From Thermoplasmata archaeon (GTDB taxonomy: Archaea > Thermoplasmatota > Thermoplasmata > Methanomassiliicoccales > Methanomethylophilaceae), in NCBI GenBank assembly GCA_015063245.1, contig SUSV01000002.1, positions 62,001 to 126,000 on the forward strand: a stretch of 64,000 nucleotides of DNA, given 5' to 3'. Below are positions 4,057-51,127 of this stretch, in pieces; position 1 is the stretch's first letter, and each line of letters opens with the position of its first letter. The notes under the pieces are model-generated. The model did no database searches, was not told the DNA's origin, and worked only from the letters and a program-made list of their open reading frames with translations. A program made the position numbers and the translations under genes.

Positions 4057-5484
4057 TCATTCTATCCTCGGAATCTCCTTTTTCCCTAACAGGATGTCCA
4101 AATCAAATAGGGCGATGTTGTTATCTGTGGCATACTCCCTGAGATCGTCGGTGAAGCCTGACAGGGAGAAGAGCGCAAACCTTGTGTTATAGGATCCCTT
4201 CAGTGAACGGACCCTTATCTGTAATGTGTTCAAGGCGGAGAAGTCCATCGGAGTTCTCGTGAACTTGCATTCTCCGAACAGGTTCATGCGGTCGTTGCCC
4301 TTCCTAACTGTAGCGACGATGTCTATGTCCACGCTCTCCGTGATGGTCTTCCCGTTCTCGTCCTTTACTTTCTTCCCGTTCTTTATAATCGGTGCTTTGC
4401 CCCACCAGGAGCCTACCTCGGAGCAGGGGTAGTTCCTTCTGACGAAGTCCCTGCAATAGTCCTCGAACCTGGGGCCCAGCCACGAGGAGATCACCTGCTT
4501 CAGATCATCATACGGGTCCTCGGAGCCCATCATCTCTTTGTTCCTGTCGATGACGCTGTAGTAGAACGAAGTCATCGGGTCGGATATGCGGTAGACTTTT
4601 GATTTCTTGGATGATATGAGGGAGTCCCTCTTCTCAATGAACCCTGATACAATCATCCTCTCCAGCTGTTGCTGAAGGGAGACATCCGGAAGTCCGGTCC
4701 GATTCTTCATCTCGTTGTAGGTGTTGTCTCCCAAGACTATGGATTTGAATATCGATACCGAATCCCTTCCGGCATTGCCCATCTCTCTGTTGATCCCGAA
4801 TTGGATATCGTTCTGTATGAATCCGAATCTGTTGAGGATGTAGCCGTTCATGATATCCTTGTAGCAGCGGTTCCCTGTCAGGCTGTGATATGCGGTAACG
4901 CCTCCCAACGTCAGATAGGTCCTGATAAAATCGTCATCGGATACATCTGGCTGGAATTCTCTCGCCTCTTCTGGTTCTATCGGGCCGAGATTGATCGTGA
5001 ACATGAAGCGCTTGTATAGCGGCTTTCCTGAGTTCATTACCTCCTCCAGCAGCAGGGAAACGGACGAACCGGAGATGATGATCATAGATTCCGTATTCCT
5101 GACCACCCAGTCGGTAAGATGCTGTATCTCCGACGCGCCTGCGCTGTAGTTCGATGTCAGATATGGAAGCTCATCGAATACGATTACCATCCTGTTCTTC
5201 TTGCAGAGTTCCTTGATGATTTCCATCGATTCGCGCATAGAATTCGTGCTAATTTGGGAACTTGTGAACTCGGAGATGGAGTTGTTTATGATGTCTAGAT
5301 TGATTTTGTACGTCGCATCGTCCAGTTCGATGTTGATGTGAGGTTTGTCCGAGATGAACCTCTCTATCAGGGTGGTCTTGCCGATACGGCGGCGACCGAA
5401 GATCATACAGGTCTTGTTGGACTCCTCCTCGTAGATTCTGGTCAGGAGTGCGAGTTCTTTGGAACGGCCGATGAATCTCTGCAT
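4057..5484 (-). CDS. Archaeal AAA ATPase with DUF234-type C-terminal nuclease-like domain
   Basis: FGRRRIGKTTLIERF Walker A, 'MVIVFDELPYL' Walker B, C-terminal 'VDIDIVATVR...NLFGECKFTRTPMDFSAL'. Confidence 0.9.
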   Translation of the reverse strand: MQRFIGRSKELALLTRIYEEESNKTCMIFGRRRIGKTTLIERFISDKPHINIELDDATYKINLDIINNSISEFTSSQISTNSMRESMEIIKELCKKNRMVIVFDELPYLTSNYSAGASEIQHLTDWVVRNTESMIIISGSSVSLLLEEVMNSGKPLYKRFMFTINLGPIEPEEAREFQPDVSDDDFIRTYLTLGGVTAYHSLTGNRCYKDIMNGYILNRFGFIQNDIQFGINREMGNAGRDSVSIFKSIVLGDNTYNEMKNRTGLPDVSLQQQLERMIVSGFIEKRDSLISSKKSKVYRISDPMTSFYYSVIDRNKEMMGSEDPYDDLKQVISSWLGPRFEDYCRDFVRRNYPCSEVGSWWGKAPIIKNGKKVKDENGKTITESVDIDIVATVRKGNDRMNLFGECKFTRTPMDFSALNTLQIRVRSLKGSYNTRFALFSLSGFTDDLREYATDNNIALFDLDILLGKKEIPRIE

Positions 5485-5510
5485 GTTTGTTCCATGTTTT
5501 AGTGATATTT

Positions 5511-5570
5511 AATTTTACATATATTTTGTATATGTAATAAATTTTACAAATAGAAATTATATGTAAAATT
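5511..5570. promoter_or_regulatory. AT-rich inverted-repeat operator-like array upstream of the DUF234 ATPase gene
   Basis: Perfect 12-bp inverted repeat AATTTTACATAT (5511-5522)/ATATGTAAAATT (5559-5570) with an internal TTTTACA copy near 5542. Confidence 0.65.
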
Positions 5571-5621
5571 TATAATAATCATGTGATAACCGCCAAATAT
5601 CCAAAAATCATCCTCCGTAGC

Positions 5622-6492: not shown

Positions 6493-7515
6493 ATGAAGGT
6501 AAGACAGGCAGTCGTTATGGTAGGCGGGATGGGAACGCGTCTCCGTCCCCTGACCGAGAACAAACCGAAACCGATGCTCTCGGTGGCTGATAAACCGTGC
6601 ATATGGTATCTCATGAGATCATTGGCCCGTGCAGGCATCGAGGAGGTGATTCTAGCATGCGGATACAAGCCCGGCATGATGGAGTCACTCGGGGACGGCA
6701 GCGATCTAGGGATAAGGGTCGTCTATTCCTATGAGGATGAGCCTCTTGGGACCGCAGGGGCGATCAAGAACGTAGAATCCAGATTGGACGAGGTGTTCGT
6801 AGCGGCGAACGGCGACGTGTTCGCTGATATCGATGTCAAGAAGGAGGTGGAGACTCACTTCGCCAACGACGCCACGGTCACGATAGCCCTCACACCCGTC
6901 GAGAACCCGTGCGAGTTCGGCATCGCACGCGTGGACGATACCGGGAGGATCCTGGAGTTCAAGGAGAAGCCCAAACCGGAAGAGGTGTTCTCCAATCTGA
7001 TCAATGCCGGAGTATACGTTGTGAACAGGTCCGTCCTCGAGAAGGTCCCCGCAGGAAAGTTCTACGATTTCTCCAAGGACCTGGTCAAGGTCCTGATGGA
7101 GGAAGGCAAGAGGATCCAGTCCTACAGCCTCACGGGAACATGGATGGATGTCGGAAGGCCGCACGACCTCCTGGAGGCGAATCTCGCCGTCGCGGAGAGG
7201 GAGTACAGGCTCAAGAGATTCGATTCAGCGGTAGAATGCTGCTCCAGGGACCAGTTCTACCTCGGACCCGGGGCATCCATCGAGAACTCATCCACTGTCA
7301 AGACGGTCATCTCGAAAGGATCCGCCGTAAGGGATTCGAATCTGAACCGCGTCCTCATCCTGGAGAACTGCAAGGTCGACGGTGCGAGGATTGAGAACTC
7401 TATCCTGGGCGACGGTTGTGTCGTGAGGAAGGGTGCCGAGATAACGAATGCGGTGCTCGCCGACAACACGGTCGTCGAAGAGGGTCAGAGGATAGAGGGC
7501 GACAGGATAGTCTGA
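6493..7515 (+). CDS. Nucleotidyltransferase family NDP-sugar synthase with left-handed beta-helix C-terminus
   Basis: AVVMVGGMGTRLRPLTENKPKPMLSV, 'DEPLGTAGAI', C-terminal hexapeptide-like repeats. Confidence 0.92.
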   Translation: MKVRQAVVMVGGMGTRLRPLTENKPKPMLSVADKPCIWYLMRSLARAGIEEVILACGYKPGMMESLGDGSDLGIRVVYSYEDEPLGTAGAIKNVESRLDEVFVAANGDVFADIDVKKEVETHFANDATVTIALTPVENPCEFGIARVDDTGRILEFKEKPKPEEVFSNLINAGVYVVNRSVLEKVPAGKFYDFSKDLVKVLMEEGKRIQSYSLTGTWMDVGRPHDLLEANLAVAEREYRLKRFDSAVECCSRDQFYLGPGASIENSSTVKTVISKGSAVRDSNLNRVLILENCKVDGARIENSILGDGCVVRKGAEITNAVLADNTVVEEGQRIEGDRIV

Positions 7516-7522
7516 ACGCATC

Positions 7523-7748
7523 TCACCGTTCTTCCAGGAATGGCATCATGTATTGGGGGATCGTGATGACCCCGTTGGATTCTCCGGTTCTGGAGCCTGT
7601 GAGCTTGATGCATCTCCTGACTCCGTACAGATCCTGATTGTCGAGGATGGTTCTGGCGCAGTCCTTTGATCAGCAAGGCCTGTTTTTTGTTCAGACCGGA
7701 ATCCTTCCATTTCTGCATCTGGTCGAGAATCTTTCTACGAAAGCCCAT
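7523..7748 (-). pseudogene. Internally deleted relic of an AAA ATPase (DUF4143-type): N-terminal 30 aa joined to C-terminal ~45 aa out of frame
   Basis: MGFRRKILDQMQKWKDSGLNKKQALLIKGLRQ in one frame followed immediately by DCARTILDNQDLYGVRRCIKLTGSRTGESNGVITIPQYMMPFLEER* in another; no P-loop left. Confidence 0.65.
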
Positions 7749-7775
7749 GATTGATGAATGGGAAGGAACGATGTA

Positions 7776-7836
7776 ACATTTTTTACCACGAAAAAAATGT
7801 GTATTTCAACACTTTTTACCACGAACTTTTTGCGTA
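7776..7836. repeat. Two 28-nt imperfect direct repeats, 33 bp apart, upstream of the ATPase relic
   Basis: ACATTTTTTACCACGAAAAAAATGTGTA (7776-7803) and ACACTTTTTACCACGAACTTTTTGCGTA (7809-7836). Confidence 0.8.
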
Positions 7837-46768: not shown

Positions 46769-46807
46769 TAATAGTAATACAAATTACGGTAATTTTAATT
46801 ACTATTA
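46769..46807. promoter_or_regulatory. Nested palindromic operator-like site upstream of the second DUF234 ATPase
   Basis: TAATAGTAAT (46769-46778)...ATTACTATTA (46798-46807), perfect 10-bp arms, with internal palindrome AATTAC-G-GTAATT. Confidence 0.65.
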
Positions 46808-46823
46808 TGTTCTTCAGATCATC

Positions 46824-48131
46824 ATGAGATTCTACGGTCGCGAGGAGGAACTCCGTGTTTTGGAGAATATAAGAGAGATATCAGAGAATTCCAGCAGATT
46901 CACCGTCATCCTTGGAAGGCGCCGTATCGGAAAGACTGCGTTGGCATTGAGGTCCGTCGAGGGCCATCCTTTCGTCTATCTTTTCGTGACGCGTGTGAAC
47001 GAGTCTGTCCTCTGCCACAATATGCAAAATACGTTGCAGGAATCAGGGATAGACCTCACAGGAGAGATCTCAAGGTTCCGTGATATCCTCAAGGCAGTGA
47101 TGATTCACTCAAGGGAGCATCCGATCACGATGATCATTGATGAGTTCCAGGACTTTTCTTATGTCAATCCATCGATCTATTCGGATATCCAGGAGATTTG
47201 GGACCTATACAAGGACACGTCCAGATTGAATCTCATAGTCAGCGGATCGGTGCATACCATGATGACGCGTCTGTTCGAAGATGAGAAGCAGCCGTTATTC
47301 AACCGTCCGACATCCAAGATATCTCTTCAGCCGTTTCCGATAAGTCTTATGAAGGACATTCTGAAGGACCACAATCCCGATTATACGAACAAGGACCTCC
47401 TCACTATGTATATGCTCACAGGCGGGACGCCTTTGTACATCGAGGTGCTGATGGATGGCGGTGCCCTTGATTCCGATGGCATGATCGACAAGGTCGCATC
47501 ATTCGATTCGATCTTCCTGAGGGATGGAAAGGATCTATTGGTAACAGAGTTCGGCAAAGACTACAGGACATATTTCTCCATACTGCAGCTGATATCCTCC
47601 GGGAAGGAACGCCGTTCGGAGATCGAGGACGTTCTTCGGATGGAATCTGGACCGTATCTGGACCGTTTGAAGAGAGAGTATAGGTTCGTCGATACTGTGG
47701 CTCCGATATTCTCGGACCATGACACCAAGAACACGCGTTGGAGGATCACTGATATGTATCTTCGTTTCTATTTCAGGATGATCCTCCCCGTATCCGACTA
47801 TCTGGAATCTGGGAGGTATGACCTGTTGCGCAGATCCATACTCAGCGCGATACCTAATTACGAGGGCAAGGTTCTGGAAGAGTATTTCACGAGGCGGATA
47901 AAGGAGGAGGACACCTACACCAGGATAGGCGGGTTCTGGAACCGCAAGGGGGACATCGAGATAGACATAGTTGTCGTAGACGACATCGAGAAGACGGCCA
48001 GGGTCATTGAGGTCAAGAGGAATCCCGATAAGCTGGATGAAGGTATACTGAGGATGAAGGCAGAGTATCTGAAAGACGGCCTGAAAGGATACCAAGTGGT
48101 CTATCAGGGGCTCTCTGTCAACGACATGTGA
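46824..48131 (+). CDS. Archaeal AAA ATPase with DUF234-type domain
   Basis: MRFYGREEELRVLENI...ILGRRRIGKTALAL Walker A, 'TMIIDEFQDFSY', C-terminal 'IEIDIVVVDDIEKTARVIEVKRN'. Confidence 0.92.
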   Translation: MRFYGREEELRVLENIREISENSSRFTVILGRRRIGKTALALRSVEGHPFVYLFVTRVNESVLCHNMQNTLQESGIDLTGEISRFRDILKAVMIHSREHPITMIIDEFQDFSYVNPSIYSDIQEIWDLYKDTSRLNLIVSGSVHTMMTRLFEDEKQPLFNRPTSKISLQPFPISLMKDILKDHNPDYTNKDLLTMYMLTGGTPLYIEVLMDGGALDSDGMIDKVASFDSIFLRDGKDLLVTEFGKDYRTYFSILQLISSGKERRSEIEDVLRMESGPYLDRLKREYRFVDTVAPIFSDHDTKNTRWRITDMYLRFYFRMILPVSDYLESGRYDLLRRSILSAIPNYEGKVLEEYFTRRIKEEDTYTRIGGFWNRKGDIEIDIVVVDDIEKTARVIEVKRNPDKLDEGILRMKAEYLKDGLKGYQVVYQGLSVNDM

Positions 48132-48670: not shown

Positions 48671-49015
48671 ATGAAAGCGAAAGCTAGGAATGGGCCCTAC
48701 AAGGCCGGGAGCAGCAGGAAGAACAAGAGGACCAAGGTCAGGAATCTTGTGTCCTTCGAGAAGGGGAACATCAGGATATTCCTCAGACAGATAACGCCAT
48801 TCGACGAGGTTTCTGAGGAGTACGTCCAGCCCTTCCTAAGGTTGGTCTCTTTGGTTGACGGCAAGTATGCGAGGATTCCGTTGGACAAGGAGATTCTGAT
48901 CGAGTTGGGAGGATTCCTTCAATCAATCGGTTCCGGACTGTCGATGAAGGAGGATTCAGGATTGGAGTACTCAGCCCCTTTGAAACCGGAAGCTATCCAG
49001 GAGGCGAGTGAATGA
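48671..49015 (+). CDS. Small hypothetical protein A of the Rep module
   Basis: Good RBS (GAGGTAAT); 'PFLRLVSLVDGKYARIPLDKEILIELGGFLQSIGSGL' aligns by eye with the next ORF. Confidence 0.7.
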   Translation: MKAKARNGPYKAGSSRKNKRTKVRNLVSFEKGNIRIFLRQITPFDEVSEEYVQPFLRLVSLVDGKYARIPLDKEILIELGGFLQSIGSGLSMKEDSGLEYSAPLKPEAIQEASE

Positions 49016-49386
49016 GCTCAGAAGAGGAATTCATCCAGGAAGCTCAGGAGAAGCTTGGGGTCCCACAGCCGGTATCGAAACCTCCCATGAGGCTGCCGTT
49101 GAACAAGTTTCATTACGGCCGTCTCTTCGCCAATTTCACATTGGTGGCAGACTATGACATCAAGAATCAGGAGTACAACCCTCCGGAGCCCAGACTGAAC
49201 ATATCTATGGGGGAGAAGCGCATTTGGCTTCCCACAGATCCGGAGGTCATCAGGCTTTTGGGCGAGTACTTCATCACAGTCGGAAAGACGATGGAGGATC
49301 TCAAGTTCCCTACCAAGGAAGTCGATATCGAGGAGATCAGGAGGATCCTGATGTCATGCGGGTGTGTGGTGAAGGATGGGAATTAA
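49012..49386 (+). CDS. Small hypothetical protein B of the Rep module (probable paralog of A)
   Basis: 4-bp overlap with A; 'PRLNISMGEKRIWLPTDPEVIRLLGEYFITVGKTM'. Confidence 0.7.
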   Translation: MSSEEEFIQEAQEKLGVPQPVSKPPMRLPLNKFHYGRLFANFTLVADYDIKNQEYNPPEPRLNISMGEKRIWLPTDPEVIRLLGEYFITVGKTMEDLKFPTKEVDIEEIRRILMSCGCVVKDGN

Positions 49387-49735
49387 GAGATGCTGCCTGA
49401 CCTGCGCATACTTCCCAGGATTCAACGAGGAGCATGAGCTGGATGCTGCTTGTAAGGATTACAGGCCCCTCGATATCGACAAGATCGATGAGATGACCAG
49501 GGACGAGATCCTTACCAAGCTGTATGGGGTCGAATATCTTCGTAACTATTACGAGGAGGATGAGTTCGATGAACTCTATGGTTGGAAGGTCGAAATGGAG
49601 GAATCTTCATCCAGGACTGGATCCAGATGCCCTGAGGAATACGGACCTCAGACCGTCAATGAAACGCCTTACGTTGACAAGAACGGACTTCGCGTATGCG
49701 AGTTCCTCTTGGACGGTCAGAGCGGGGAGCTCTGA
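49376..49735 (+). CDS. Cys-containing small hypothetical protein of the Rep module
   Basis: MGIKRCCLTCAYFPGFNEEHELDAACKDY; 11-bp overlap with the previous gene. Confidence 0.65.
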   Translation: MGIKRCCLTCAYFPGFNEEHELDAACKDYRPLDIDKIDEMTRDEILTKLYGVEYLRNYYEEDEFDELYGWKVEMEESSSRTGSRCPEEYGPQTVNETPYVDKNGLRVCEFLLDGQSGEL

Positions 49736-49738
49736 ATA

Positions 49739-51127
49739 ATGGACATCCAGGATCTGTTGGATCAAGGATACACTGGGAACATGGATGTGGGGGAGCTGGA
49801 ATCGAGGATCAAAGAGACCTTCGAACATCCAGTCATCCCTTACATCAAGAAACTCCCTTTCGAGGATACTTTCTACAATCCTGACGACACGCCTTTATCG
49901 GAATTCAACGAGCTCCTGTCATGGGTGCCTCCGGGCCATGATCTGGAGCGTCCGATAAGGAATCATTGCGGACCTCTGAGGGTGAAGGGCTCCACAGGTA
50001 ACAACGGCCGTGTGTTCACTGCATGTTCCAATGACGCGGACCATTACATCAGGGGAAAGTGCAACCATTGCTGGTCATGCAAATGCCCGGTGTGTCTGAA
50101 CGATACATGCATGAGACAGGGGACAAAGGCGGAGATGAGATTCGTTGCTTACCGCCTACTATGTGAGAAGCAGGGGATCGATCCGGGACCGCTAGGTCAT
50201 TGGGTGTTGTCCCCTGACCAGGATCTGATCAAGAGGAAGATGCAGTCCCATGAGGACTTCACCAAGTTCCGCAGGAAGATGCAGAAGGATCTCGTCAAGG
50301 TCGGAGCGAAGGGCGGTATCCTGATATTCCATCCTTGGAGGATGAAGGATGATCTTTGGGAGGTCGGACCGCACTTCCATGGTTTTATCCACGGATTCCT
50401 CGATACGGAGAGGTTCCTGGATTCTCATGAAGGCTATGTCATCAAGAAGGTCCACTCGAAGGTCAAGATAGAGTCCATCCGTTTGTCGATGGCCTATCTT
50501 TACACCCATGAGGGGATCGGCCTTTACGAGAGGCAGCCTACAACGGATGATTACATCAGGAAGATCGTGAACTACTACCTTCCCGGATTGCAGACTCCGG
50601 AGCGTCAGGACGATGGTTCGATGGTTATCAGGAACAGATACACTGATGAGGATTATGCCGATCAAGTACTCGGGAAAGGGAGGATGGTCGGAGAGGGAAT
50701 CATCGACTGGTTCGGTATGATCAAGGACTCTCATTTCTCCCAGGTACGTAACAACTATTTTGGCGATATGGCCAACAACATCCTCAAGAAGGTCTGTGTC
50801 GAGAACTATCGTGAGACCAGGACCTGTACCCATTGCGGGGCCGAGCTGAGGACGTATGCAGGCCTGTGCGATCAATGTGGAGAGCAATCTTCACACATTT
50901 TCGAGAACAATGTGAGGGTGTTCGCGAAGGATGCGGATTATGTGAAGGAGCTCGTTCCAGAGATCAAGTCAGGTCTGTCGGATTCGGGTATGAGATGGGG
51001 CGATCTCACACCGAAAGTTGCCATGATCGTTTCCGATAAGGAGGTCATGGACAACATAGCCGCTTCCAGACCTGAGAATGCTCTTAAGGCCTATTCTTCA
51101 GGCCCCATAGTTCGTCATCTCTGTTGA
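49739..51127 (+). CDS. HUH-superfamily rolling-circle replication initiator (Rep)-like protein
   Basis: 'GGILIFHPWRMKDDLWEVGPHFHGFIHGF' (HUH motif HFH), 'SMAYLYTHEGIG' candidate Tyr motif, N-terminal 'CNHCWSCKCPVC' and C-terminal 'CTHCGAELRTYAGLCDQCG' zinc fingers. Confidence 0.8.
   Translation: MDIQDLLDQGYTGNMDVGELESRIKETFEHPVIPYIKKLPFEDTFYNPDDTPLSEFNELLSWVPPGHDLERPIRNHCGPLRVKGSTGNNGRVFTACSNDADHYIRGKCNHCWSCKCPVCLNDTCMRQGTKAEMRFVAYRLLCEKQGIDPGPLGHWVLSPDQDLIKRKMQSHEDFTKFRRKMQKDLVKVGAKGGILIFHPWRMKDDLWEVGPHFHGFIHGFLDTERFLDSHEGYVIKKVHSKVKIESIRLSMAYLYTHEGIGLYERQPTTDDYIRKIVNYYLPGLQTPERQDDGSMVIRNRYTDEDYADQVLGKGRMVGEGIIDWFGMIKDSHFSQVRNNYFGDMANNILKKVCVENYRETRTCTHCGAELRTYAGLCDQCGEQSSHIFENNVRVFAKDADYVKELVPEIKSGLSDSGMRWGDLTPKVAMIVSDKEVMDNIAASRPENALKAYSSGPIVRHLC

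Follow-up and report, generated by a model that had tools for sequence, protein, structure and literature searches.

A putative private operator array before a PDC-S27 ATPase-nuclease gene of a Thermoplasmata archaeon, and co-change of such arrays with the winged helix of the encoded proteins

The stretch of DNA analysed here (64,000 nucleotides; referred to as the window) carries two intact ATPase genes of the candidate defence family PDC-S27 and the relic of a PDC-S01 gene, each with a repeat array on its upstream side. The features concerned are the following:

46769..46807, + strand: putative private operator array, consisting of two GTAAT-N4-ATTAC dyads 15 bp apart, a 39-bp near-palindrome overall
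46793..46799, + strand: probable TATA box TTTTAAT within the array, at -31 to -25 from the ATG, inferred for the gene at 46824
46824..48131, + strand: PDC-S27 ATPase of 435 aa, with AAA+, winged-helix and PD-(D/E)xK nuclease domains
4057..5484, - strand: second PDC-S27 gene (ATPase_2 and DUF234), 475 aa, assigned by domain matches and the PDC-S27 HMM
5511..5570, - strand: private array of the 4057..5484 gene, a 27-bp, 89% inverted repeat with TTTTACATATA-type half-sites
7485..7748, - strand: relic of a PDC-S01 (AAA_14/DUF4143) ATPase, with about 32 N-terminal residues and then an unrelated frame
7775..7825, - strand: direct-repeat array, two 18-nt copies 33 bp apart, before the broken PDC-S01-type gene

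The array before the gene at 46824 reads TAATAGTAATACAAATTACGGTAATTTTAATTACTATTA, which on direct reading of the window is an inverted repeat around a single G, and is composed of TAATAGTAAT AC AAATTAC G GTAATTTTAATTACTATTA. Its arms (46769-46787 and 46789-46807) are 19 nt each, form 17 pairs and are separated by a spacer of 1 nt. The four GTAAT half-sites are laid out as GTAAT-N4-ATTAC-N-GTAAT-N4-ATTAC (GTAAT, 46774-46778; ATTAC, 46783-46787; GTAAT, 46789-46793; ATTAC, 46798-46802). The nested palindrome with four GTAAT/ATTAC half-sites in 39 bp that had been noticed in a preliminary description of this DNA is real. Indeed, the 64-kb window contains no other inverted repeat of such quality, no repeat of that quality occurred in dinucleotide shuffles of the whole window (n = 20), and a repeat of this type arose in one of 20,000 shuffles of the AT-rich 73 nt around it. 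Its position upstream of the ATG at 46824 was also described correctly, except that the gap between the end of the array and the ATG is 16 nt and not 17 nt. This start codon is supported, because the relatives of the encoded protein align from residue 1. In the orthologues L103 and L104, the array is 92% and 85% identical, respectively, whereas the adjacent 5' flank is 27-33% identical; between orthologues generally, this flank shows 25-33% conservation, which is random. The probable TATA box, at -31 to -25 inside the array, would imply a leaderless transcript.

The protein encoded behind this array matches the PADLOC PDC-S27 HMM with an E-value of 6.3e-46 over residues 2-412, and the product of the 4057-5484 gene matches it with 1.4e-43; both intact genes of the window carry ATPase_2 and DUF234. 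In the 46824 protein (ATPase_2 match, 1.5e-13), Walker A (GRRRIGKT, residues 31-38) and Walker B (IIDEF, with D106 and E107) are intact. Its C-terminus matches DUF234 and conserves D381 and E396-V-K398, the catalytic residues of PD-(D/E)xK nucleases, and the strand-helix order of such nucleases is present in its AlphaFold2 model (mean pLDDT 94; winged helix about 90). The AAA+ domain spans residues 1-235 and the winged helix residues 234-310 approximately, with the recognition helix at 276-286 and the wing extending to 308. The DNA-binding domain predicted by the model, i.e. the winged helix, is thus located in the same protein as the nuclease. Foldseek neighbours were PABY2304, SSO1545, archaeal Cdc6/Orc1 (1fnn and 1w5t) and STAND proteins, Cdc6/Orc1-like folds ranking among the best matches, and the fold also resembles that of MuB. 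To our knowledge, no mechanism is known for PDC-S27 or PDC-S01. Both have been listed as archaea-enriched, single-gene defence candidates consisting of an ATPase fused to PD-(D/E)xK, with validation pending; with 3,503 (PDC-S27) and 9,986 (PDC-S01) archaeal cases, they are among the commonest archaeal candidate defence genes (PMC12988326). That paper mentions neither a promoter or operator nor autoregulation.

The arrays at 5511-5570 and about 7.8 kb, pointed out in the preliminary description, turned out to be an inverted repeat and 33-bp direct repeats, respectively. The former was matched by none of 5,000 local shuffles. It sits in the spacer 5485-5582, which is common to the divergent promoter of the gene 5583(+), so that an autorepressor of the 4057..5484 gene would touch the 5583(+) promoter as well. 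The copies of the direct repeat at 7775-7825 are 94% identical, and this repeat type recurs, as a 32-33-bp repeat, in front of the intact relatives L259 and L260, which belong to two further genomes. The gene behind it had been labelled an ATPase relic, rightly so, because the ORF 7485-7748(-) consists of an AAA_14/DUF4143 N-terminus followed by an unrelated frame; over about 32 residues it matches intact ORFs of G012 (72% identity) and G028 (61%), its best relatives. The family of the relic is the sister AAA_14/DUF4143 family, not DUF234, and the genes related to it match PDC-S01. Just downstream of the ATPase gene at 46824, small ORFs (48671-49735) accompany a gene (49739-51127, +) whose 462-aa product has Cys-rich stretches and an HFHGF (HUH-like) motif. 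This protein resembles the initiator with which an integrated replicon would start rolling-circle replication; beyond a weak zinc ribbon it gave no Pfam match, nor did it give a PHROG match. The genome to which the window belongs (G000; 1.49 Mb, 12 contigs), placed in Methanomethylophilaceae/Methanomassiliicoccales by named orthologues, contains 12 ATPase_2 and 17 DUF4143 matches, a very heavy load of such ATPases for its size.

Upstream arrays are a common property of these families. Of the DUF234 genes in 60 related genomes, 93 could be used together with the 130 nt upstream of them. An array, called as an inverted or direct repeat beating all dinucleotide shuffles, was present in 64.5% of these, as opposed to 19% of 195 control genes from the same loci and 35% of the AT-rich controls (n = 40). 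The median z of the array was 4.25 for DUF234 genes and 0.93 for controls (p = 1e-20), a contrast that is conservative, since the controls include divergent neighbours with the same spacer. Chance AT-richness as the source of the arrays was ruled out by the local shuffles and the control genes. For about a third of the family genes the array was not significant in the repeat scan, and many DUF234 relatives have direct repeats in place of inverted ones. Similarly, arrays were found before 8 of 13 PDC-S01 genes versus 20 of 120 controls. The direct repeats of PDC-S01 genes (L259, L260, L272 and 7775-7825 of the window) recur at 32-33 bp, about three helical turns, compared with the 15-bp dyads of PDC-S27. 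A scan of the collection yielded 79 members of the subfamily of the 46824 gene, mostly from Bacteroidales, with others from Methanoculleus, Clostridiales, Coriobacteriales and Burkholderiaceae. The arrays of the subfamily follow the pattern NNNNY-N4-RNNNN with a period of 15 or 16 bp and four half-sites; dyads with N4 and this period were the commonest best fit, and geometry scores amounted to 18-20 out of 20 in 76 of 80 arrays, while shuffles mostly reached 15-17. The suggestion that each ATPase locus of the window has its own private array thus holds there and extends to the 93 archaeal DUF234 genes, to PDC-S01 and to more than 100 bacterial and archaeal subfamily genes.

The arrays coincide with core promoter elements. 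In the archaeal members of the family set, TATA-like hexamers are most frequent between -30 and -20 relative to the start codon, and the AT-rich stretch with the arrays extends from about -100 onto this peak. In Bacteroidales, the -7 box TAnnTTTG lies beside 83 of 89 arrays, versus 2.5% in the background, and the arrays, with a median end 13 nt before the ATG over the set, fall in the likely 5' leader. That leader position, and the fact that all dyads could pair, would suit RNA hairpins controlling translation or attenuation. Such a role is very improbable, given that the archaeal arrays lie on or upstream of the TATA box at -30 to -20 and hence are largely untranscribed, that many relatives have direct repeats, and that pairing alone does not require one sequence in all four half-sites or their joint switching. 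A protein bound at the TATA or -7 box would block initiation, and with position as the sole basis, repression is most likely, rather than activation. The two adjacent dyads per promoter do recall the C-box arrangements of restriction-modification systems, in line with a protein that acts as an activator or two-way switch in the manner of C proteins instead of as a simple repressor; this is unlikely, however, because occlusion typically takes place at TATA, -7 or start regions, with which the arrays overlap. The behaviour of C proteins has been summarised elsewhere (PMC12255303).

The letters of the half-sites vary on this common layout. The half-site is GTAAT in Methanomethylophilaceae and ATTAT in Methanoculleus, and bacterial clades use TTAAY, TAAAY, GTAAC, TTTAY, GAAAT, GTTAC or GAACT. 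Within an array all four half-sites carry one sequence and switch together between clades, and arrays differ between nearly all protein clades. Paralogues in one genome can have three codes, namely TTAAT, TAAAT and GTAAT in G338, and TTAAC, TAAAT and GAACT in G061. Conversely, GTAAT, the code of the 46824 gene, recurs with a Bacteroidales protein that is about 41% identical. The occurrence of several codes per genome and of GTAAT in both archaea and Bacteroidales indicates that specificity travels with the protein and not with the host. A search of 60 genomes for the pattern of the 46769-46807 array, allowing at most 2 mismatches, returned a single occurrence in its own genome, before its own gene; in G009, G011 and G013 the pattern likewise precedes the orthologue. 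Only two of the other 56 genomes contained a match (G008 and G040), that of G040 having 2 mismatches. The site in G008 (C1:7736-7779; L257 1486-1529) consists of three tandem GTAATCCAGATTAC dyads at exactly 15 bp, matching the 46769-46807 array in code and geometry. No ATPase gene lies within about 1.5 kb to its left or right, the genome lacks a close orthologue, and the site represents either an orphan array or nothing more than a tandem repeat. Among the 60 genomes, the 46769-46807 site therefore has no regulon to speak of. Operators across one gene family are often the target of one regulator, and a separate host transcription factor might bind the arrays. Such a factor would give one code per host, against which speak the unlike arrays of paralogues in one genome, the single occurrence of the 46769-46807 site per genome and the sharing of one code by archaeal and Bacteroidales proteins that are about 41% identical; its involvement is hence highly unlikely.

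The half-sites change together with the domain expected to read them. As had been anticipated for the palindrome and the protein clade, half-site class clusters strongly on the protein tree: when the winged-helix columns were left out of the tree, it required 12 changes versus 45.8 for shuffled labels. The outcome named in the preliminary description as refuting, i.e. upstream repeats that are missing or bear no relation to protein phylogeny, was thus not observed. On trees of this kind, winged-helix columns shared the branches of half-site change beyond the rest of the protein (p = 0.0012-0.0016), and the recognition helix did so even more in the first set, with p = 0.0004-0.0008. Some half-site registers (three rows) were assigned by eye, and the co-change results hold without them. 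After enlargement of the set with 37 proteins, p was 0.001 for the winged helix and 0.0065 for the recognition helix, and changes of base 2 tracked the wing residues 302 and 306 (p < 1/4000). Tree-based co-change was used because phylogeny swamps raw per-column associations, which did not single out the winged helix. Similarly, a family-wide k-mer Mantel test gave an operator-protein correlation that was not localised to the winged helix and that is probably confounded by host promoter sequence.

Particular residues were considered as well. In the first set, base 1 of the half-site was G in 12 of 14 cases with Arg or Lys at residue 281 versus 4 of 60 otherwise; in the new set, the figures were 21 of 26 versus 0 of 11. 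Base 1 alone gave no winged-helix excess on the tree (p = 0.62), and independent changes were few (only 5 independent pairs), so that residue 281 was dropped as the sole determinant of base 1 and kept as a suggestive lead that is not phylogenetically robust. In one Bacteroidales clade, a change from Tyr278 to Gln accompanies one from GTAAC to GTTAC (L210, L212, L213, L216 and L219 versus L152-L155 and L215); Gln278 is present in the TTTAY clade too. A link of Gln278 with T at base 3 (10 of 10) was abandoned in view of 7 exceptions outside, most from one clade. By these comparisons, half-site covariation is significant for the winged-helix domain and not for single residues. The clustering on the tree and the co-change with the winged helix make self-recognition and autoregulation, as proposed in the preliminary description, the best reading of the sequences. 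This support does not extend to the toxin-antitoxin-like or selfish lifestyle proposed along with it: the gene is single, lacks a conserved partner, matches a candidate defence family and moves with its array as a compact cassette.

Comparison of flanking DNA suggests how the arrays are inherited. Between orthologues that are 89% identical, the array and the gene are the only DNA in common within 3 kb, and no conserved neighbour gene was found within that distance. For pairs at 90-97% protein identity, upstream homology mostly stops near -80, and downstream sequence is common to 14 of 63 pairs. Pairs of genes among L119/L122/L123/L124/L125 and L130/L137/L138/L166, at 93-96% protein identity, have only promoter, array and ORF in common, in otherwise unrelated flanks. 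On this evidence, the putative operator and its gene move together as a compact single-gene cassette. That array and gene are the whole common unit even at 90-97% identity is also what one would see if the array, although bound by its own protein, were an end or landing site for mobilising or maintaining the gene and not (only) an operator. Iterons and origin boxes serve Rep or Orc proteins in a comparable way, and the fold resembles Cdc6/Orc1 and MuB. In the loci read, however, no matching repeat follows the stop codon, the arrays being on the upstream side only, and their tight coincidence with core promoter elements would be needless for an end sequence, which makes this role quite improbable. 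The absence of the recognition repeats from the downstream end in these loci also sets the cassette apart from classical DNA transposons.

The palindrome is best read as a private transcriptional operator, recognised by the winged helix of the protein encoded behind the array, with a probability of about 0.72. In this model, the winged helix would bind a pair of neighbouring dyads at the core promoter of its own gene, and the bound protein would most likely repress that gene by covering the TATA box in archaea or the -7/start region in Bacteroidales. Loss, titration or switching of the protein, e.g. by its ATP state or an infection signal, may then bring about derepression. Clade-specific half-site letters would allow many paralogues per genome without cross-regulation, operator and gene would be inherited and transferred as one cassette, and the AAA+ nuclease would be kept low until a trigger appears, which would suit a role in defence. 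What was observed are the arrays with their constant geometry, privacy, promoter position, joint inheritance with the gene and co-change with the winged helix; we infer that the encoded protein itself contacts its array and represses the gene instead of activating it, as well as the triggering signal and the function against viruses. Autoregulation is the simplest model, as it accounts for the pairing of each protein with one array, the place of the arrays on promoters, the switching of codes, the joint inheritance and the presence of many paralogues side by side, and the best reading of PDC-S27 genes is that they are candidate defence nucleases which read their own operators, probably as autorepressors. 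A further, speculative and doubtful possibility is a one-gene selfish or immune cassette, whose protein would do the sensing, act as nuclease and as transcription factor, and possibly mobilise itself. The code would then be a private identity comparable with plasmid incompatibility groups, and the array would be an operator as well as a self-mark that silences the cassette or protects it against the nuclease, letting it settle in new places. If so, private winged-helix codes would let many cassettes accumulate in one genome.

A self-read private operator may be a way in which dangerous nucleases stay silent, and would explain the coexistence of dozens of them in a 1.5-Mb genome. Each array may provide a defined DNA ligand for its protein, for use in purification, assays and structure determination. 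The family as a whole may constitute a natural protein-DNA recognition code, with one scaffold and many half-sites, the rules of which are testable by single-residue swaps. The arrays may also serve as a tool, marking true starts, promoters and broken family members such as the 7.5-kb relic.

Among known regulators, C proteins, antitoxins and defence repressors control themselves through a private operator. C proteins and toxin-antitoxin systems likewise have a private palindromic operator before their own gene that moves along with it, but they comprise at least two genes and a small HTH protein, whereas one gene with AAA+, winged-helix and nuclease domains is concerned here. Indeed, no two-gene unit of the toxin-antitoxin type and no conserved neighbour were found within 3 kb, and a single 435-aa protein without conserved flanking genes differs from a type II restriction-modification controller, which is a dedicated, small HTH protein beside a methylase/endonuclease pair. 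Archaeal Orc1/Cdc6 initiators likewise combine AAA+ and winged-helix domains, and have repeats (origin recognition boxes) beside their own gene. The 46824 protein has an additional DUF234/PD-(D/E)xK nuclease domain, by which it departs from such initiators, and its array occupies the core promoter of one mobile gene, with no origin evidence. Among defence repressors, RptR represses itself through three repeats located 58-31 bp before its own start (PMC12255303). RptR, BrxR/CapW, CapR, CapS and other repressors of defence islands resemble the present case in having repeats over a defence-gene promoter together with self-repression, which is proposed here; they are small dedicated regulators, whereas here the reader domain would be part of the effector nuclease, and each clade has diversified its own code. 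The sister PDC-S01 genes are also single-gene ATPase-nuclease candidates with private arrays, which are mostly direct repeats, and the window holds only a relic. In a search of open-access papers only, a weak absence therefore, no literature was found that ties DUF234, DUF4143 or PDC-S27 to operators or autoregulation. With PDC-S27 as described (PMC12988326), the present genes share the architecture of ATPase plus PD-(D/E)xK, the self-operator being the new element. Based on the sequences, what appears new is an effector ATPase-nuclease as its own regulator, a self-operator pattern that would span a very large family found in both archaea and bacteria, and an operator code whose letters seem to have diverged, at constant geometry, along with changes in the domain that would read the DNA.
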